Below are positions 30,316 through 36,678 of a stretch of 64,000 bases of DNA, piece by piece; the first letter of the stretch is position 1; each line of letters opens with the position of its first letter. A model generated the notes under the pieces. It was given only the letters and a program-made list of their open reading frames with translations. It was not told where the DNA came from and searched no databases. Both the position numbers and the translations under genes were made by a program. The DNA comes from Rhodobacteraceae bacterium IMCC1909 (GTDB taxonomy: Bacteria > Pseudomonadota > Alphaproteobacteria > Rhodobacterales > Rhodobacteraceae). The stretch spans positions 744,001-808,000 of the forward strand of contig JAPDHM010000001.1 of NCBI GenBank assembly GCA_030704425.1, in the 5' to 3' direction.

Positions 30316-30399
30316 GCCCAAGTGGCGGAATGGTAGACGCAGGGGATTCAAAATCCCCCGCCGCGAGGCGTGCCGGTTCGAGTCCGGCCTTGGGTACCA
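30316..30399 (+). tRNA. tRNA-Leu (CAA), integration site of the island
   Basis: A complete class II tRNA: acceptor GCCCAAG pairs with CTTGGGT, anticodon stem GGGGA/TCCCC with loop TTCAAAA (anticodon CAA), a long variable arm (CCGCGAGGCGT), T arm CCGGTTCGAGTCCGG, discriminator A and encoded CCA at 30397-30399. The last 16 bases overlap the att core, so the integrase restores a full tRNA when it inserts. Confidence 0.95.
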
Positions 30400-30464
30400 A
30401 ATCTACTTCATATACACGATGTATCGCACTGATCTGTAAGCAATGTTTTGTTTTAGATGATGTG
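30384..30464 (+). repeat. 81-bp inverted repeat, left arm (attL side)
   Basis: An exact reverse complement of 31624-31704. It starts with the tRNA 3' end/att core and ends one base into the GGAGG of the integrase. Outside the arm, both ends lose similarity at once. Confidence 0.95.
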
Positions 30465-30476
30465 GAGGTATACACT

Positions 30477-31622
30477 GTGGTATCCAAAAGCAGTGAGTAT
30501 TTGTGGAAGAAGAATGAAGTTTTCTATTTTCGTAGGCATGTGCCAGTGGACGTACAGAAGCATTATGAACGATCAAGCATCGTCATTTGCTTGAAGTCCA
30601 AGAGCAAGCCGTCAGCACTGAGAGCCAGTAAATCAATCGCCAGCAAGCTGGATGATTTTTGGTTTAAAATGCGTCTTGCCGAATTGGATGTCCCTGCATC
30701 TCACTTGTTGATCAAAGGCAAACCTAAAGAGGCATTTACTTCGTATGCTCCTAAATTGAGCGAAGCTTTATCGAAGTATTGTTCTTTAAAGGGGCAGGGC
30801 CGTGCAGCACTCTTCTTCAAAGCAGGAAAGCGTAATGTTGGTTATGTTATCGATCATCTTGGAGATCGCCCAATTGATACCTACAGCTCCGCTGATGCTG
30901 CATCATTCAGGGACTGGCTGATAGCTAGAGGGCTCAATGTGTCATCCATAGCTCGTATCTTTGGAACTGTTAAAGCAGTGGTAAATCTCACTATCCAAGA
31001 GCTTGGCTTAGACTGTTCAAATGCATTTTTAAATATCTACCTACCCAAAAAGGAAGAGGAAAAACGCAAACCATTGCGTGTCGATGAGATCATGTTGATC
31101 CAAAAAACGTGTTTGGAAATTGCCGATGAACGCAGACTATTGCTTGCCCTAATATCTGACACTGGGATGCGCCTATCAGAGGCTCTGGGGCTTGCGTGGG
31201 GCGATGTTAATCTTGAGCATGAGTATCCGCATATCAATCTTGTTCCGCATCTGTGGCGGCCGCTAAAGACCTCTGGGAGTAAACGACTTGTTCCACTCGT
31301 TGGAGTAGCTTTGACGTCGATAAAACTTATGCATCGGCAGTGGGTTAACACTCAGTTTCTGTTCCCGTCGTATACAAATGCTGAACGTTGCAATGGCAAC
31401 TCAGCTTCAGCGGCTTTGAACAAGTGGATGAAGGCTTACACGAAGCAAGGTGTAGTCCATTCATTCAGGCATAGTTTTCGGGATAGGCTACGTGCCGCTG
31501 AGGTGAGCACAGAGCTTACCGATCAATTAGGTGGGTGGGCATTATCTTCAGTGGGTCAAAGTTATGGAGAAGGTCATACGTTGGTGCAAAAGTATGCTGC
31601 GATGGAGCGCATTGTGTTGTAG
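30477..31622 (+). CDS. Tyrosine-recombinase integrase
   Basis: A 381-residue phage-type integrase. The catalytic residues are present: R232 in TGMRLSEAL, a beta-hairpin lysine near 264-269, H328 and R331 in HSFRHSFR, W354 in GGW, and the nucleophile Y363 in GQSYGEG. The N-terminal part is an arm/core-binding domain. The start is GTG at 30477, with GGAGG at 30464-30468 eight bases upstream; longer frames read through the tRNA and are rejected. The gene occupies nearly all the space between the two 81-bp inverted arms. It should catalyse recombination at the tRNA-Leu core. Confidence 0.88.
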   Translation: MVSKSSEYLWKKNEVFYFRRHVPVDVQKHYERSSIVICLKSKSKPSALRASKSIASKLDDFWFKMRLAELDVPASHLLIKGKPKEAFTSYAPKLSEALSKYCSLKGQGRAALFFKAGKRNVGYVIDHLGDRPIDTYSSADAASFRDWLIARGLNVSSIARIFGTVKAVVNLTIQELGLDCSNAFLNIYLPKKEEEKRKPLRVDEIMLIQKTCLEIADERRLLLALISDTGMRLSEALGLAWGDVNLEHEYPHINLVPHLWRPLKTSGSKRLVPLVGVALTSIKLMHRQWVNTQFLFPSYTNAERCNGNSASAALNKWMKAYTKQGVVHSFRHSFRDRLRAAEVSTELTDQLGGWALSSVGQSYGEGHTLVQKYAAMERIVL

Positions 31623-31623
31623 T

Positions 31624-31704
31624 CACATCATCTAAAACAAAACATTGCTTACAGATCAGTGCGATACATCGTGTATATGAAGTAGATTTGGTACCCAAGG
31701 CCGG
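31624..31704 (-). repeat. 81-bp inverted repeat, right arm with inverted att core
   Basis: An exact reverse complement of 30384-30464, beginning one base after the integrase stop. Its outer 17 bases (31688-31704) are the att core in inverted orientation. Beyond the core the sequence resembles the island side of attR, so the site as a whole has an attP-like layout. Confidence 0.95.
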
Positions 31705-31811
31705 TATTGTTTCCCTTCATATGCACCACGTACGAACTGATGCAAACAATAACAGTACCTTACGTATCTGCAGTTCATAATCAAGCATCACATTTATGAT
31801 ACCCATTTGGA

Positions 31812-32132
31812 TACCACAGCTATCTGCAGTCACTGTACGTAGAGAGAGACGGTGTAATCCTTATCGTTACTAGTACAGGGGATGTGATGGTGGTGATGGT
31901 GGTACACTGTACGTGATGTACACCTAAAGTGACCCTACCCTTAGGTGTCCAACATTGGACAGTTACCTATCGCATAGGGGTATGCAGGGGCCATGGGGGT
32001 ACCCTGGTATATGTATATGGGCTGTTACACAGATCAGGGTTTGTGAGAGGGGTTTAAGGTATCTATCTGTTAAGCGCTGATACTGCTCACATGCGCAACA
32101 ATACTAAAAATTTTTGCGTTGGCCCGTTTTAC
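31812..32132 (+). repeat. Long inverted repeat, left arm
   Basis: Roughly 90% identical to the reverse complement of 35585-35906. It includes short motifs of symmetry: GTGATGGTGGTGATGG, a pair GTACACTGTAC/TGATGTACACC, and GTCCAACATTGGAC. It sits 107 bases inside the inverted att core; the matching right arm sits 105 bases inside attR, so the spacing is mirrored. Confidence 0.88.
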
Positions 32133-32212
32133 AGGTGGGAATCCAAGGTACAGATTTGGTTTGCGGATGGGTTTGTTCTTTGGCAGTCTGTAGCGTGATG
32201 AGACCCATTGGA

Positions 32213-32374
32213 ATGGCCAAAAGTAGAATTGAAGAGACAGAAGAAGAATTTAATGCTCGGATGGCAGCAATAAGTTCTGAATCTAAGAACGCTAATAGAC
32301 CGCAAGCTAAGCCAATAGAAAGCTCAAAGGAAGTTTTCGGGGCGTTGTTTTCTCCATCGTCCAAAGAAGACTAA
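32213..32374 (+). CDS. Possible small acidic/basic protein
   Basis: A 53-residue frame starting MAKSRIEETEEEFNARMAA, hydrophilic and probably helical at its N-terminus, with ATG at 32213 (or 32198). The upstream ribosome site is weak and no homologue is recognised; a frame of similar length exists on the other strand. Included as a candidate only. Confidence 0.25.
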   Translation: MAKSRIEETEEEFNARMAAISSESKNANRPQAKPIESSKEVFGALFSPSSKED

Positions 32375-32381
32375 CAGCACC

Positions 32382-32537
32382 ATGAAACACCTCACCGAGC
32401 CAATACGGGCGATCCGCTTTGTAATTCTGGCGTTCATGACGACGATTGGAACGCAGGTTGTTGCCAAAGATATTAGCATTACCTGCACATATACTGGTTC
32501 TTATGATGACAAAGGATATGAAGGCAGGTTGGCCTAA
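32382..32537 (+). CDS. Short signal-peptide protein, probably truncated
   Basis: A 51-residue frame: MKHLTEPIRAIRFVILAF, MTTIGTQVVAKD and a tail ITCTYTGSYDDKGYEGRLA, then TAA. The first 29 residues look like a signal peptide with cleavage after VVA. The stop comes soon after, so it looks like the front of a longer secreted protein cut short. A distant echo of its coding start (AATACGGGCG region) is seen near 33990. Confidence 0.35.
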   Translation: MKHLTEPIRAIRFVILAFMTTIGTQVVAKDISITCTYTGSYDDKGYEGRLA

Positions 32538-32608
32538 AAAGGGTGCTTCAAAAACAAAATGACCGCCCAACAGAGAGAAACTCTTTGTTGAACGGCCACT
32601 GGTTCTAA

Positions 32609-33069
32609 TCCATCTGTCAGTCACCTTCAGCATAGGTTGCACCCATGCGTCCTGCGTTTAAGTCTCGGGAACAGCATCTAAAGATATTATTTCCGCCAAC
32701 TAATCGCCGATGCAATCATGACAATGATCCGAAGACCAAAATCTTTCCAACATCTGTGGTCTAATTTGCCGACTACCTTCTACATTAGCGAGCCAATGCT
32801 TCCTACGTTTTAGTAAAAGCTCACGAAATCCGAAGACTTCACTTACTTTTTATATCACGTCGATGCCTTTCCGTTTTCTCATCCGAAGATCAGAACTGTC
32901 CCAGCATCTGTAATCTAACTCATCAGTTACCTTCAACATCAGCGAACTGATGCCTCCTGCGTTTAATTTGTTTCCACAATCTCTGAAGAGCTTGTTTTCA
33001 CAATATAACCGCCAATGCTTTTGCTGATAATGACCCGAAGATCATAGTCCTCTCCAACATCTGTACTCC
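32609..33069. repeat. Three degenerate tandem repeats of about 150 bp
   Basis: Units at about 32609-32765, 32766-32918 and 32919-33069. Each has, in order, a block like ACCTTCAACAT, a block like ATGCCTCCTGCGTTTAA, a block like CCGAAGATCA and a block like CCAACATCTGTAATCTAA. Internal spacers vary in length and sequence. Short minus-strand frames start at equivalent points, but single-base shifts break them in each unit, so either the units are non-coding or they derive from a decayed coding cassette. Confidence 0.7.
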
Positions 33070-33217
33070 GACAGTGGTAATTTCGTTTTAGCCTTAAAAC
33101 TATTGCCAGCTTTAAAAACTGAAATTTCGTTACCCCCCAGACTAGACTGGCTTGGAGATTATATAGAAATCTGAATGTACAAAGCATAAAATTAGGAAAA
33201 AGCGCTTACTCACAGGC

Positions 33218-33248
33218 TTATCCCCAACTTTGTGAAAATTATCCCCAA
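33218..33248. other. Two DnaA-box-like TTATCCCCA motifs
   Basis: TTATCCCCAA occurs at 33218-33227 and 33239-33248 in the same orientation, 21 bases apart, each one base from the consensus TTATCCACA. No replication gene or iteron array is nearby, so a functional origin is doubtful. The rest of 33070-33546 holds no supported gene. Confidence 0.25.
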
Positions 33249-33546
33249 AAACTATGGATAGTGATGCGCAAAACAACAAAAAACGATAACGAATCGATTT
33301 TAGGACACCCAAATAATGAGCGATGACCGTCTCACTCGCTTTCATTCGCCAACTCAGCATCACCTGCGGCCTCTGTAAGCACCATACGATGCTAGAGGTG
33401 GCAAACCTTATAGCTGTCGTACAAACAATCCGCAGTCAGATCACGCTTAAGTTAGTATCTATGAGCGTTGTGCTGTTGATCCAAAAATGTTTAGCTGAAA
33501 AGGTATTTTGTGCTAAGATTTAGCTGAAACTAGGGAGATTATAAAT

Positions 33547-33837
33547 ATGCCAAAAGGATACTTAGTGGCCAACATTAGGGTCACTGATGCTGAGAAATTC
33601 CAAGCATTTGCAGGAATGGCGGCACCAGCTATCAAAAAATATGGTGGTAAAGTTCTAGCCAGAGGCCCTTTGGCTGATAGGCACGAAGGTAAACTCACTG
33701 GTACAGTTATGATGATTGAGTTTGAAAGTAAGCAAGCTGCCGAAACATTCTATTTTAGTGACGAATATCAAGCTGCAAAAGCTGTGCGTGAAACATGTTC
33801 AGATACCGACCTGATGATTATCGAGGGCGCTGAGTAG
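33547..33837 (+). CDS. DUF1330 small protein
   Basis: A 96-residue protein of the dimeric alpha-beta-barrel fold (DUF1330): KGYLVANIRVTDAEKFQAFAGMAAPAIKKYGGKVLARG, then EFESKQAAETFYFSDEYQAAKAVR. Function unknown; the fold resembles small stress- or antibiotic-monooxygenase-like proteins. ATG at 33547 is preceded by AGGGAGAT. It is complete and looks functional within the island cargo. Confidence 0.85.
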   Translation: MPKGYLVANIRVTDAEKFQAFAGMAAPAIKKYGGKVLARGPLADRHEGKLTGTVMMIEFESKQAAETFYFSDEYQAAKAVRETCSDTDLMIIEGAE

Positions 33838-34133
33838 TTCAGCTTTTATCCCAATCCTCTTTCTGAACAGCCTAACTAATATGAATCAAAGGGTTCCCTA
33901 CAGGCTCACACAGAGGCTCATACAGCGTGTGTAACGTCTGTATCATCGTGTGACAAAAAACCAAAGGTTATCACGCTTGTACGGAGCTAATACGGGCGCT
34001 TTGACGATAGTTGTTGTTTCTAACATTTGACATCAATTTTGAAGGTCAGAATGTTTAACCCGTGCACTCCACTACGCTTAAGTGTTTATGTGGCCTACAA
34101 ACATATAATTTTGTGGATTGGGATTAATCGCTC
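33838..34133. other. Gene-free gap with a 12-bp tandem repeat
   Basis: No gene is seen. AGGCTCACACAG at 33902-33913 is followed directly by AGGCTCATACAG at 33914-33925. The area near 33975-34000 weakly resembles the coding start at 32390-32420. Confidence 0.35.
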
Positions 34134-34523
34134 ATGGAAAAGACAATGCAAAACAAACCTCACAGATTTGGTGAGTTAACACCCTATTTCACTGTTACAG
34201 ATTCAGATTACTTCATCACTTTTTTGTCGGAAGTGTTTGCTGCCAAAATTGTGAAGGACAGCCGCTATGAAGATGGCACACTCCAACATGCAAGACTACA
34301 GATTGGTGATAGTCTAATCATGCTTAACCAAGCGAATGGAACTTATGCGGCAATGCAAATGCAGATGCATCTTAATGTTGCAAATGTAGACGACACTCTT
34401 GCAAAAGCGATCAGCAAAGGTGCGACTTCAATCATGAAACCTATGCTGCGACCTCATGGGGATAAGATGGCCGGTTTTTGCGATCCCATGGGCAATATCT
34501 GGTGGGTTGCGCAGATGGCTTAG
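34134..34523 (+). CDS. VOC-family (PhnB-like glyoxalase) protein
   Basis: A 129-residue protein with the paired beta-alpha-beta-beta-beta modules of the vicinal-oxygen-chelate fold: LTPYFTVTDSDYFITFLSEVFAAKIVKDSRYEDGTLQHARLQIGDSLIMLNQ, and MMKPMLRPHGDKMAGFCDPMGNIWWVAQM-like C-terminal module (written here as the segments MKPMLRPHGDKMAGF and CDPMGNIWWVAQ). The DPxGNxW ending is characteristic. Enzymatic role unknown. A cargo gene of the island. Confidence 0.82.
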   Translation: MEKTMQNKPHRFGELTPYFTVTDSDYFITFLSEVFAAKIVKDSRYEDGTLQHARLQIGDSLIMLNQANGTYAAMQMQMHLNVANVDDTLAKAISKGATSIMKPMLRPHGDKMAGFCDPMGNIWWVAQMA

Positions 34524-34558
34524 AGTAGTTTTGAGTGATGTGATTGAAACAAACACTA

Positions 34559-34747
34559 TCAGCCTCTCTTATATCCAACAGCCAAGTTATGATCTGTCTC
34601 ACATGTGTCACCTGAGCAGCACTCAAAAATATTAGACTTACAGATGACACATTGCTCATGCCCATGCACTACGACAGTGTTCAGAGGTGACTGGCATCTG
34701 GGGCAACGCTGCTGGTGTGCGTTGGCTGGATTCAAGAGATTATCCAA
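34559..34747 (-). CDS. Small zinc-ribbon protein
   Basis: A 62-residue protein with a Cys4 ribbon: CPRCQSPLNTVVVHGHEQC then CKSNIFECCSGDTC. It starts at TTG (34747) immediately after the TGA of the upstream CIA30-like gene, so it is likely translated by coupling. Ribbon proteins of this size act as metal-binding or nucleic-acid/protein-contact modules; role unknown. Confidence 0.6.
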   Translation of the reverse strand: MDNLLNPANAHQQRCPRCQSPLNTVVVHGHEQCVICKSNIFECCSGDTCETDHNLAVGYKRG

Positions 34748-35281
34748 TCAGTAAAACTCCAAGCTCTTCACCGATACATTAGCCGTATAATCCTTACCGT
34801 ATGCGACAATACCTATAGTTTTAATCTTGCTTTGGTTGAGTGTAGTTCTCAAAATAGATGACGACTTTACAAAAGCCTCAAACGGAAGCCTTACCTCATT
34901 CCATGAGCCGTTTGTTTGAAAACTATGCTGATAATAGTGCCAAGGTAAGCGAGTGTTGGTACTCCTGATGTGTAAATAATAAAGATCACCGTTGCCTTTA
35001 ACCATCAGTTTGATACCTGTTTTGCCCTTCGCCGCCTCCCATGCCACTGGTGACCGAACCTGAATAAAACCACCATTATTAGCTGTAGAAACTTCACCGC
35101 TCAGCCGAATGACTTGGGATGTTCCCTGATCTTCAAACTGTGCAGTTCCCTCGGAAATACCACCCATGACTGTATCTGCCAAATAAACCCATTGTCCTGT
35201 TTTGATGAGATTATTAGCCATTGAGCCACCATTTGTAAGGAGCAGTAACAGAGTAAACAGAGATGCTATAATCGTCTTCAT
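34748..35281 (-). CDS. CIA30-like (NDUFAF1-like) secreted protein
   Basis: A 177-residue protein with an N-terminal signal peptide (MKTIIASLFTLLLLLTNGGSMA) and a jelly-roll domain like CIA30/NDUFAF1: WVYLADTVMGGISEG, FIQVRSP, GIKLMVKGNGDLYYLHIRST, PFEAFVKSS, and the ending IKTIGIVAYGKD. In mitochondria the family aids complex I assembly; bacterial homologues are secreted or lipid-linked with unknown function. Four codons before the mature domain look like a cleavage site. Its stop abuts the zinc-ribbon start. Confidence 0.75.
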   Translation of the reverse strand: MKTIIASLFTLLLLLTNGGSMANNLIKTGQWVYLADTVMGGISEGTAQFEDQGTSQVIRLSGEVSTANNGGFIQVRSPVAWEAAKGKTGIKLMVKGNGDLYYLHIRSTNTRLPWHYYQHSFQTNGSWNEVRLPFEAFVKSSSILRTTLNQSKIKTIGIVAYGKDYTANVSVKSLEFY

Positions 35282-35371
35282 AGTTTTCTCCTTTTGCTCG
35301 TATTGATGACATATTGTGAGTTGCCCGTGTATTAAGACTTACTTGGTGAGCCGTTCCGTAATGTGATCCTA

Positions 35372-35473
35372 TTAGTCGCTCTTCTTCTTGAACATATCTA
35401 TCATCATCATGATTCTCATCACGAAGCCTTTGAAGGATTGTTTAGCGAACTCAGGCTTATCTGCATCAGACAT
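35372..35473 (-). CDS. Small basic peptide candidate
   Basis: A 33-residue frame (MSDADKPEFAKQS, then FKGFVMRIMMMIDMFKKKSD) with an amphipathic, Met-rich middle and a lysine tail. GGAA lies about seven bases upstream. No homologue is known to me. It could be a membrane-active peptide, but it may equally be chance in AT-rich DNA. Confidence 0.35.
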   Translation of the reverse strand: MSDADKPEFAKQSFKGFVMRIMMMIDMFKKKSD

Positions 35474-35482
35474 ATCATATTT

Positions 35483-35517
35483 CCGATCTTCTCAGCTTAT
35501 CCGATCTTCTCAGCTTA
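35483..35517. repeat. Short tandem repeat, 18-bp period
   Basis: CCGATCTTCTCAGCTTA at 35483-35499 and again at 35501-35517, separated by one base. It lies just upstream of the small peptide candidate and overlaps the likely control region. Confidence 0.8.
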
Positions 35518-35584
35518 ATAGATGTTCCTGTAAGCCTAACTCCACACGCTGTAACCAGTAAATCTTTATCTTGGATTCTCACCA

Positions 35585-35906
35585 GTAAAACGGGCCAACG
35601 CAAAAATTTTTAGTATTGTTGCGCATGTGAGCAGTATCATCGCTTAACAGATAGATACCTTTAACCCCTTCCACAAAACCTGATCTGTGCGACAGCCCAT
35701 ATACATATACCAGTGTACCCCCCATGGCCCCTGCATACCCCTATGCGATAGGTAACTGTCCAATGTTGGACACCTAAGGGTAGGGTCACTTTAGGTGTAC
35801 ATCACGTACAGTGTATCACCATCACCACCATCACATCCCCTGTACCAGTAACGATAAGGATTACGCTTTCTGTCTGTACTTTCAGTGACTGCAGATAGCT
35901 GTGGTA
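35585..35906 (-). repeat. Long inverted repeat, right arm
   Basis: The partner of 31812-32132, about 90% identical in inverted orientation, with scattered substitutions and single-base indels and a more diverged outer end. It lies 105 bases inside attR. Confidence 0.88.
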
Positions 35907-36011
35907 CGACACAGTGGACACACAAACTATCTTGCAATTCATTTTGGTTAACATAACCTACTAATAATACTGTCATGGAAATATGATTGGTGCATACGTT
36001 AGGGAATGACA

Positions 36012-36028
36012 CCGGCCTTGGGTACCAA
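36012..36028 (+). repeat. attR core, copy of the tRNA-Leu 3' end
   Basis: CCGGCCTTGGGTACCAA, identical to 30384-30400 and in the same orientation. It marks the right junction of the island; sequence beyond it should be the original chromosomal DNA downstream of tRNA-Leu. Confidence 0.9.
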
Positions 36029-36348: not shown

Positions 36349-36678
36349 ATGGCAAAATACTTGGTGCGCGCCGGCTATAATGACAGCGGCTTCAAAGGCA
36401 TGGTTTCCAATCCGTCAGATCGAGGTGAAGCGATTAAAGGAATTACAGCTGCACTTGGGATCACGACCGAATGCATTTATTTCTCACCCTCCACGGCCGA
36501 AGCCATCATGATCGTTGAGTCTGATGCGGAAAAAAACGCGCGGCTCATGATGGTCGTGATGTCGTCGGGAACCTTCTCGGGCGGATCCATGGTCGAGCTG
36601 ATTGACACGGATAGCATGCTCGCTGCGATGCAAGACTCGGGAAAATTGCTTGGGACTTATAAATCGACAACGGGCTAA
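36349..36678 (+). CDS. GYD-domain protein
   Basis: A 109-residue protein of the GYD family (AKYLVRAGYNDSGFKGMVSNPSDRGEAIKGI; FSPSTAEAIMIVESD; SGGSMVELIDTDSM). The fold is ferredoxin-like; function unknown. The ribosome site AAAGGTG lies 8-14 bases upstream of the ATG. It is a single gene following the hexamer repeat. Confidence 0.8.
   Translation: MAKYLVRAGYNDSGFKGMVSNPSDRGEAIKGITAALGITTECIYFSPSTAEAIMIVESDAEKNARLMMVVMSSGTFSGGSMVELIDTDSMLAAMQDSGKLLGTYKSTTG

Follow-up and report, generated by a model that had tools for sequence, protein, structure and literature searches.

The window analysed here, a 64,000-nucleotide (nt) stretch of contig JAPDHM010000001.1 (positions 744,001 to 808,000, assembly GCA_030704425.1) from Rhodobacteraceae bacterium IMCC1909, carries at its tRNA-Leu(CAA) gene a 5628-bp genomic island in which the attachment (att) core occurred three times: in direct orientation at both ends and, between the integrase gene and the cargo, inverted and at the centre of a complete resident phage-type attachment site (attP). 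Alphaproteobacterial islands whose DUF6538 tyrosine integrases form one clade shared the same plan of tRNA core, integrase gene, inverted core, cargo and direct core, and we conclude with very high confidence that these mirrored attP sites are a real, conserved feature of tRNA-integrating islands. Standard schemes give such an island one attP. An integrase clade with two mirrored, jointly maintained attP copies makes that scheme incomplete, and the recurrent layout suggests that these islands integrate by a mechanism still to be described for their kind. The island family is apparently undescribed: the literature searched contained no description of such islands, in keeping with the preliminary description of this DNA, which knew of no element with such a layout; most subscription journals lay outside the scope of that search, and absence from print is unproven. 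The sites, repeats and integrase gene of the window element were as follows.

30401..36028, no strand: whole integrated element, 5628 bp (attL-attR direct repeat; island-free site in congener G001)
30316..30399, +: tRNA-Leu(CAA), the integration target, whose 3' end is the attL core (ARAGORN, Rfam tRNA, island-free site in G001)
30384..30400, +: attL core, 17 bp (exact match)
30384..30464, +: left arm of the integrase-side inverted repeat (core and 64-bp P' arm)
30477..31622, +: tyrosine integrase, 381 amino acids (aa), DUF6538 and Phage_integrase (Pfam PF00589, E 1.2e-16)
31624..31704, -: right arm of the integrase-side inverted repeat (P' arm and inverted core)
31688..31704, -: middle core, centre of the resident inverted attP (exact match)
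31705..32157, -: P arm of the middle site (cargo-side inverted repeat, left copy)
35560..36011, +: P arm of attR (cargo-side inverted repeat, right copy), with about 105 bp beside the core diverged
36012..36028, +: attR core, 17 bp, where the element ends on the right (exact match; G005 and G002 resemble the right flank from 36012 onwards)

The three copies of the core, CCGGCCTTGGGTACCAA, were exact matches at the positions first described, and 0 of 100 shuffles gave three core matches, even with three mismatches permitted. On the integrase side, 30384-30464 and 31624-31704 were 100% complementary over 81 nt, so the reported identity with the island side of attL was confirmed. These repeats started within the core and ended at the edges of the integrase gene, which had a GTG start, with GGAGG at 30464-30468 on the repeat edge, and a TAG stop immediately ahead of the right arm. 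The resemblance of the cargo side to the island side of attR, also part of the preliminary description, held beside the core (31688-31728 and 35988-36028, 80% complementarity over 41 nt) and had been understated, as 31812-31999 and 35719-35906 were 95% complementary over 188 nt and 31995-32157 and 35560-35722 were 93% complementary over 163 nt, the cargo-side pair spanning about 450 bp in all. The duplication of both arms supported the earlier view of the middle copy as built like a complete, reversed attP, and the third, inverted site sets the layout apart from a simple attL-cargo-attR island, as had been claimed. The diverged stretch of about 105 bp nearest the right core showed 12, 8 and 12 matches in its first three 20-bp bins (ungapped). 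Of the 12 complete elements compared, 10 had cargo-side arms that agreed fully or almost fully beside the core for 120 bp or more. The two exceptions were the window element and the second element of E109, and the window element is therefore a partly decayed member of the family.

The borders were set by comparison with relatives. The congener G001 has an identical tRNA-Leu(CAA), no island, and then the counterpart of the window's right flank (41 bp at 80% including the core, followed by a tRNA-Met region of 177 bp at 82%), and its distance of about 1.3 kb from tRNA-Leu(CAA) to the tRNA-Met region is nearly the spacing found in the window's right flank. Because G001 has the same tRNA and right flank without the island, the 5.6 kb in the window is an insertion. 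The search of this tRNA-Leu site in relatives that had been proposed as a check thus found it island-free in G001, and occupied with the same layout at locus L042. The window element has a tyrosine recombinase, the tRNA 3' end directly repeated at its two borders and an island-free relative, as expected of an island; the expectation of two att sites only in the integrated state was violated by the third, inverted site, here, in relatives and in the plasmid record NC_008043.1. In the integrase, R232, K264, H328, R331 and Y363, which we take to be the catalytic residues of a tyrosine integrase, were invariant across 11 aligned integrases.

The plan recurs beyond the window element. A DNA search found the mirrored arms, with equal spacing, in the congener G011, and a protein search at E 1e-15 gave nine places with related integrases in the window's genome and six in G011, among which the same plan was found at Leu-CAA, Thr-TGT, Leu-CAG, Ser-TGA and Ser-GGA. 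Wider searches, each with its own threshold and counting the window's genome where it was part of the set, found relatives in 10 of 295 genomes drawn from the window's family (TM1040 integrase as query, E 1e-120), 28 of 61 genomes of one other family (E 1e-100), 10 of 385 genomes drawn from the class (E 1e-60) and 4 of 398 drawn from the phylum (E 1e-80). An inverted repeat of at least 40 bp and at least 70% identity flanked the integrase gene in 62 of 90 clade places (a count in which L044 and L101 appear twice, their integrase being split; L059 contained no integrase gene) and in 41 of the 57 clade integrases with enough flank, that is, at least 200 bp before and at least 1500 bp after the gene. 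These flanking repeats had a median length of 92.5 bp and a median identity of 97%, and 21 were perfect. None of 20 non-clade tyrosine integrases from G000 (the window's genome), G011, G302 and G470 bore such a repeat by a comparable criterion applied around the catalytic domain; L238 had no upstream sequence, hence 19 were testable, and the controls number 20 rather than 21 as L254, drawn as a control, is a clade member (222 bits) with a 100-bp repeat of 97%. Eleven further loci (L300 being a second fetch of L236) all had the repeat, at 39-118 bp. In the integrase tree, rooted on L060, with rows below 280 aa dropped (below 200 aa for outgroups, which removed L254), all 62 repeat-bearing integrases fell in one 86-member clade with support of 0.967, and all seven outgroups fell outside it.

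The middle core followed the target. Searching for the last 14 nt of the tRNA, with one mismatch permitted, gave for the next copy downstream of the integrase gene in 60 tRNA-adjacent cases 41 inverted copies, 1 direct copy (L114) and 18 cases with none, of which 13 have less than 1.1 kb after the gene. The 41 inverted middle cores span 16 kinds of tRNA, and the copy following the first was direct in 8 of the 60 cases within the fetched range. Complete triples beyond the genus include E106 and E110 (G302) and E108 and E109 (G470), and E109 (L109 5126-15214) is a tandem pair of mirrored islands at tRNA-Thr(CGT), in which the attR core of the first island is the insertion point of the second. 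One of 72,556 plasmid records matched P0001, that of Ruegeria sp. TM1040. Its complete circular megaplasmid record, NC_008043.1, has the plan in pristine form near 586.1-598.9 kb, with the tRNA-Phe core at L296 positions 11911 (+), 13234 (-) and 24664 (+), an integrase-side repeat of 85 bp and a cargo-side repeat of 1148 bp, both at 100%. A BRO-family gene (WP_011537156.1) lies in both cargo-side copies, and a type I restriction system lies between them. Scans of viral contigs gave one relative with the integrase, five with the integrase alignment and none with a 1079-aa cargo protein from L053; one viral contig, L099, has a mirrored integrase gene (84 bp, 100%). The L053 integrase had no match among phage records.

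The two attP copies are repeatedly homogenised by some process. In the trios window/L042/L035 and L052/L053/L056, the integrase-side arms (81-121 bp) were 100% identical within all six elements, and between the elements of each trio the 4-8 differences stood at identical positions in both arms in six of six pairwise comparisons. Between elements at Ser-TGA and Ser-GGA three bases of the core differ, and in each element all three sites follow the version of its own tRNA. Such homogenisation would not result from site-specific inversion by itself, but would from gene conversion or if the arms paired on a single strand. Since the middle core agrees with the target across 16 kinds of tRNA and the two integrase-side arms change together, we expect the circular form to bear a pair of attP sites that are inverted and maintained jointly.

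The integrase gene pointed away from the tRNA in 60 of the 61 integrases whose tRNA adjoins the element end (binomial value 5e-17, some cases being orthologous and hence not independent). The same was true in 44 of the 45 whose repeat reached 40 bp, in 31 of 32 with at least 3.5 kb after the gene, enough to reveal a facing tRNA, and in 12 of 12 in single-contig genomes: L042, L045, L046, L052 and L056 in G011, L106 and L110 in G302, and L104, L107, L109, L227 (without repeat or further core) and L254 (from the control list) in G470. The sole integrase gene directed towards its tRNA, at L055 (G018:C15), is on a short contig starting inside the repeat, where an assembly choice is possible. L201, with a facing tRNA 1049 bp after the gene and no matching core, was left out; with it the count is 60 of 62. 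Two equal attP sites on a double-stranded circle would be expected to give both orientations. Cargo behaved otherwise: L042 15912-18338 matched L035 6516-4093 in reverse (97.4%) at the same tRNA, with the integrase genes colinear (94.9%), and cargo was inverted relative to the integrase gene between L053 and L056 and between L045 and L053, and lay the same way in L052/L053 and L045/L056. The preliminary description had proposed two segments that the integrase could flip separately. Cargo inversion agrees with part of that proposal; free flipping of both segments is unsupported, as the integrase gene points one way in 60 of 61. Cargo inversion could reflect homologous recombination across the long cargo-side repeats, since the asymmetry of orientation tracks repeat length, short around the integrase gene and long around the cargo.

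The reading that we favour, tentatively, is integration from a single strand in the manner of CTXphi, a filamentous phage of Vibrio cholerae. From the integrated anatomy observed in many elements we infer a circular form with two inverted attP sites, in which the integrase segment would have a P' arm at each end and the cargo a P arm at each end, and, once one attP had served for integration, its partner would remain as the inverted middle site. Since inverted repeats duplicate P', core and P alike, a single strand of the circle could fold into a dumbbell whose stem would be a complete double-stranded attP (P'-core-P). By recombining this folded strand with the tRNA site, the integrase would exchange one strand and leave replication to complete the reaction, as for CTXphi and integron cassettes. 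Such a route would fix the direction of the integrase gene relative to the tRNA and yield the observed order of sites, while arm pairing with mismatch repair would keep the arms identical. Excision would occur by ordinary attL x attR recombination, and cargo inversions may arise by homologous recombination, or through the integrase, across the cargo-side repeats. Consistent with folding, the core and both arms are duplicated, not the core alone, and copies able to pair were found on the integrase side (100%) and, on the cargo side, in 10 of 12 elements and NC_008043.1, the window element being one of the two exceptions. If so, a widespread family of islands would add a third known natural example, beside CTXphi and integron cassettes, of a tyrosine recombinase acting on a folded single DNA strand, and the first known one in which the element encodes its own, tRNA-targeting integrase; this claim we hold slightly more loosely than the mechanism itself.

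Several observations weigh against single-strand integration. Neither a single-stranded form, nor a circle, nor an inversion event was observed, and the families shown for the scanned cargo proteins, which are part of all cargo, included no relaxase and no initiator of rolling-circle replication. The cargo-side repeats, up to 1148 bp, exceed what a folded attP should need, and the window's own right P arm has diverged beside the core. A 40-bp repeat was lacking in 16 of the 57 clade integrases with enough flank, and the tRNA-adjacent L058, L119, L199, L219 and L227 had no further core despite at least 1.7 kb after the gene. The orientation bias of the integrase gene could stem from selection, or from an unseen asymmetry between the two attP sites beyond the repeat. 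Finally, L112 and L211 bear different tRNA-type cores at the two ends of the integrase segment, Arg-type on one side and Phe-like on the other in L112, Arg and Gly-like in L211 (typed by eye). These two loci are also natural cases for pinning down the crossover point.

The main rival, which we regard as unlikely, is an inversion system resembling that of the yeast 2-micron plasmid, where the integrase would invert integrase segment against cargo in a replicating circle, turn the replication forks and so amplify copies, the integrated form being a resting state. The portion of PMC3147054 consulted describes the 2-micron Flp/FRT system as a recombinase gene on a circle with two inverted sites in identical 599-bp inverted repeats, and the present islands likewise combine a recombinase gene with two inverted target sites in long, near-identical inverted repeats. 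The variable orientation of cargo among relatives fits such a system, as do the primase-helicase modules of some cargos (Prim-Pol and D5_N/DUF5906/Pox_D5 in L049, AEP-TOTE and DUF5906 in L110, DUF5906/Pox_D5 in L047), but the three cargo proteins of the window matched no replication family in a Pfam scan, and the direction of the integrase gene is fixed in 60 of 61, whereas flipping between equal attP sites should give both. Moreover, an attP x attP reaction by the integrase is only postulated. These islands differ from the 2-micron plasmid in being bacterial, integrating into chromosomes and having tRNA cores, and copy-number amplification is only proposed for them.

A doubtful alternative, less probable than amplification in a circle, is that the islands serve as a platform for cassette exchange, on which cargo is swapped or inverted between elements with the same core and the integrase gene and tRNA stay in place. 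The window element and L042 have the site, the integrase (92%) and the P arms in common and little cargo, and a helicase-like/tetratricopeptide repeat (TPR) cargo common to L045 and to L052, L053 and L056 (86-89% DNA identity over 5 kb, starting 20-70 bp from the core) sits beside integrases only 52-53% identical and at different tRNAs. The hybrid cores of L112 and L211, the different P-arm types beside one Thr core in G000 and the unfixed orientation of cargo would also suit exchange. Homologous recombination within the long P arms, however, accounts for exchange without the integrase, and the mirrored integrase segment with its fixed orientation is left unexplained.

Long repeats undergo gene conversion readily, and the mirrored sites could be a passive by-product, an old duplication kept alike by RecA-dependent conversion in which the middle site has no role. 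The clade members with enough flank and no repeat would fit this, but the plan was kept at 16 kinds of tRNA with a middle core matching each target, and integrase-side arms of only 81-121 bp were identical within all six elements compared; we consider it improbable, more so than cassette exchange. A single inverted double-insertion event was ruled out because the integrase gene is not duplicated and the plan is kept across those 16 kinds of tRNA. An assembly artefact or chance repeat deserves practically no weight, since the exact ending of several metagenome-assembled genome (MAG) contigs at the repeat (L037, L198, L202, L204, L216) is set against the same layout in single-contig G011, G302 and G470 and in complete NC_008043.1, which rules out for the family (not from reads of the window) the assembly error first named as a possible refutation, and against shuffles and non-clade control integrases, which rule out chance.

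Compared with known systems, the islands resemble classical tRNA islands (attL-integrase gene-cargo-attR) in their tRNA 3'-end target, integrase gene beside attL, direct repeat at attR, island-free relative and tandem insertions, and differ in the third, inverted and complete attP between integrase gene and cargo and in the inverted repeats enclosing each of these segments. As in the attP(+) of CTXphi, two inverted attP sites could fold from a single strand into one site. CTXphi, however, is a single-stranded DNA phage that uses host XerCD at dif, whereas these elements have their own integrase and tRNA targets and a presumed single-stranded form, and the integrase gene or cargo would fill each loop. 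Integron attC cassettes likewise have inverted repeats able to fold one strand into a recombination site, and cassettes insert in a fixed orientation, to which the fixed integrase direction may be likened; unlike a cassette, the present element carries its integrase and targets a tRNA gene. The window integrase scored 34.8 bits against NF040815 (XerA/integron integrase), far under the 220-bit cut-off, and no attI or IntI was noticed in these elements, no search having been aimed at IntI or attC. Tycheposons and marine phage satellites are also tRNA-linked tyrosine recombinase islands with metabolic cargo, and some cargos here have primase-helicase modules; an inverted middle att goes unmentioned in the portions consulted of PMC10872708 and PMC11389934, the texts through which the comparison was made in place of the original description.

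The mirrored layout provides a simple signature for finding such islands and mapping their ends, with a named example in Ruegeria sp. TM1040, and the repeats may explain why MAG contigs break at these islands. Single-strand integration, 2-micron-like amplification and cassette exchange arise from it as testable alternatives.

The cargo of the window element consisted of three recognisable genes.

33547..33837, +: DUF1330 protein, 96 aa (Pfam PF07045, E 1.6e-26)
34134..34523, +: glyoxalase/VOC-type protein, 129 aa (Pfam PF00903, E 6.1e-7)
34748..35281, -: CIA30-domain protein, 177 aa (Pfam PF08547, E 1.8e-26)

DUF1330 cargo was also present in a distant G470 island (L107 10812-11156), and GYD-domain genes occurred in the cargo of L042 (11238-11648) and just right of the window's attR (36349-36678). 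The window cargo contains a degenerate 84-nt direct repeat (73%) at 32727-32810 and 32881-32964, and a perfect 18-bp tandem duplication lies at 35482-35517, close to the right P arm. The 1079-aa cargo protein of L053 was not adopted as a replication protein, since it and its three homologues at 87-89% matched only ResIII, below threshold, and the predicted fold was unusable (predicted local distance difference test score, pLDDT, 29). A 1084-aa open reading frame of L099, considered as a relative of the cargo helicase, was dropped at 21% identity in the alignment and appeared HsdR-like by eye. The TPR protein in the cargo of L045, L052, L053 and L056 contains 102-bp tandem repeats whose copy number differs between elements, and towards its C terminus it resembles a methyltransferase in L053 and a sulfotransferase in L045. 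The window's genome (G000:C1, C2 and C3; L062-L074) holds ten copies of the tRNA-Thr(TGT) core, with several P-arm types and one truncated tRNA-Thr, and two of the sites, C1:70783 (-) and C1:138230 (+), which share a P arm and are inverted relative to each other, would delimit a segment of 67 kb.

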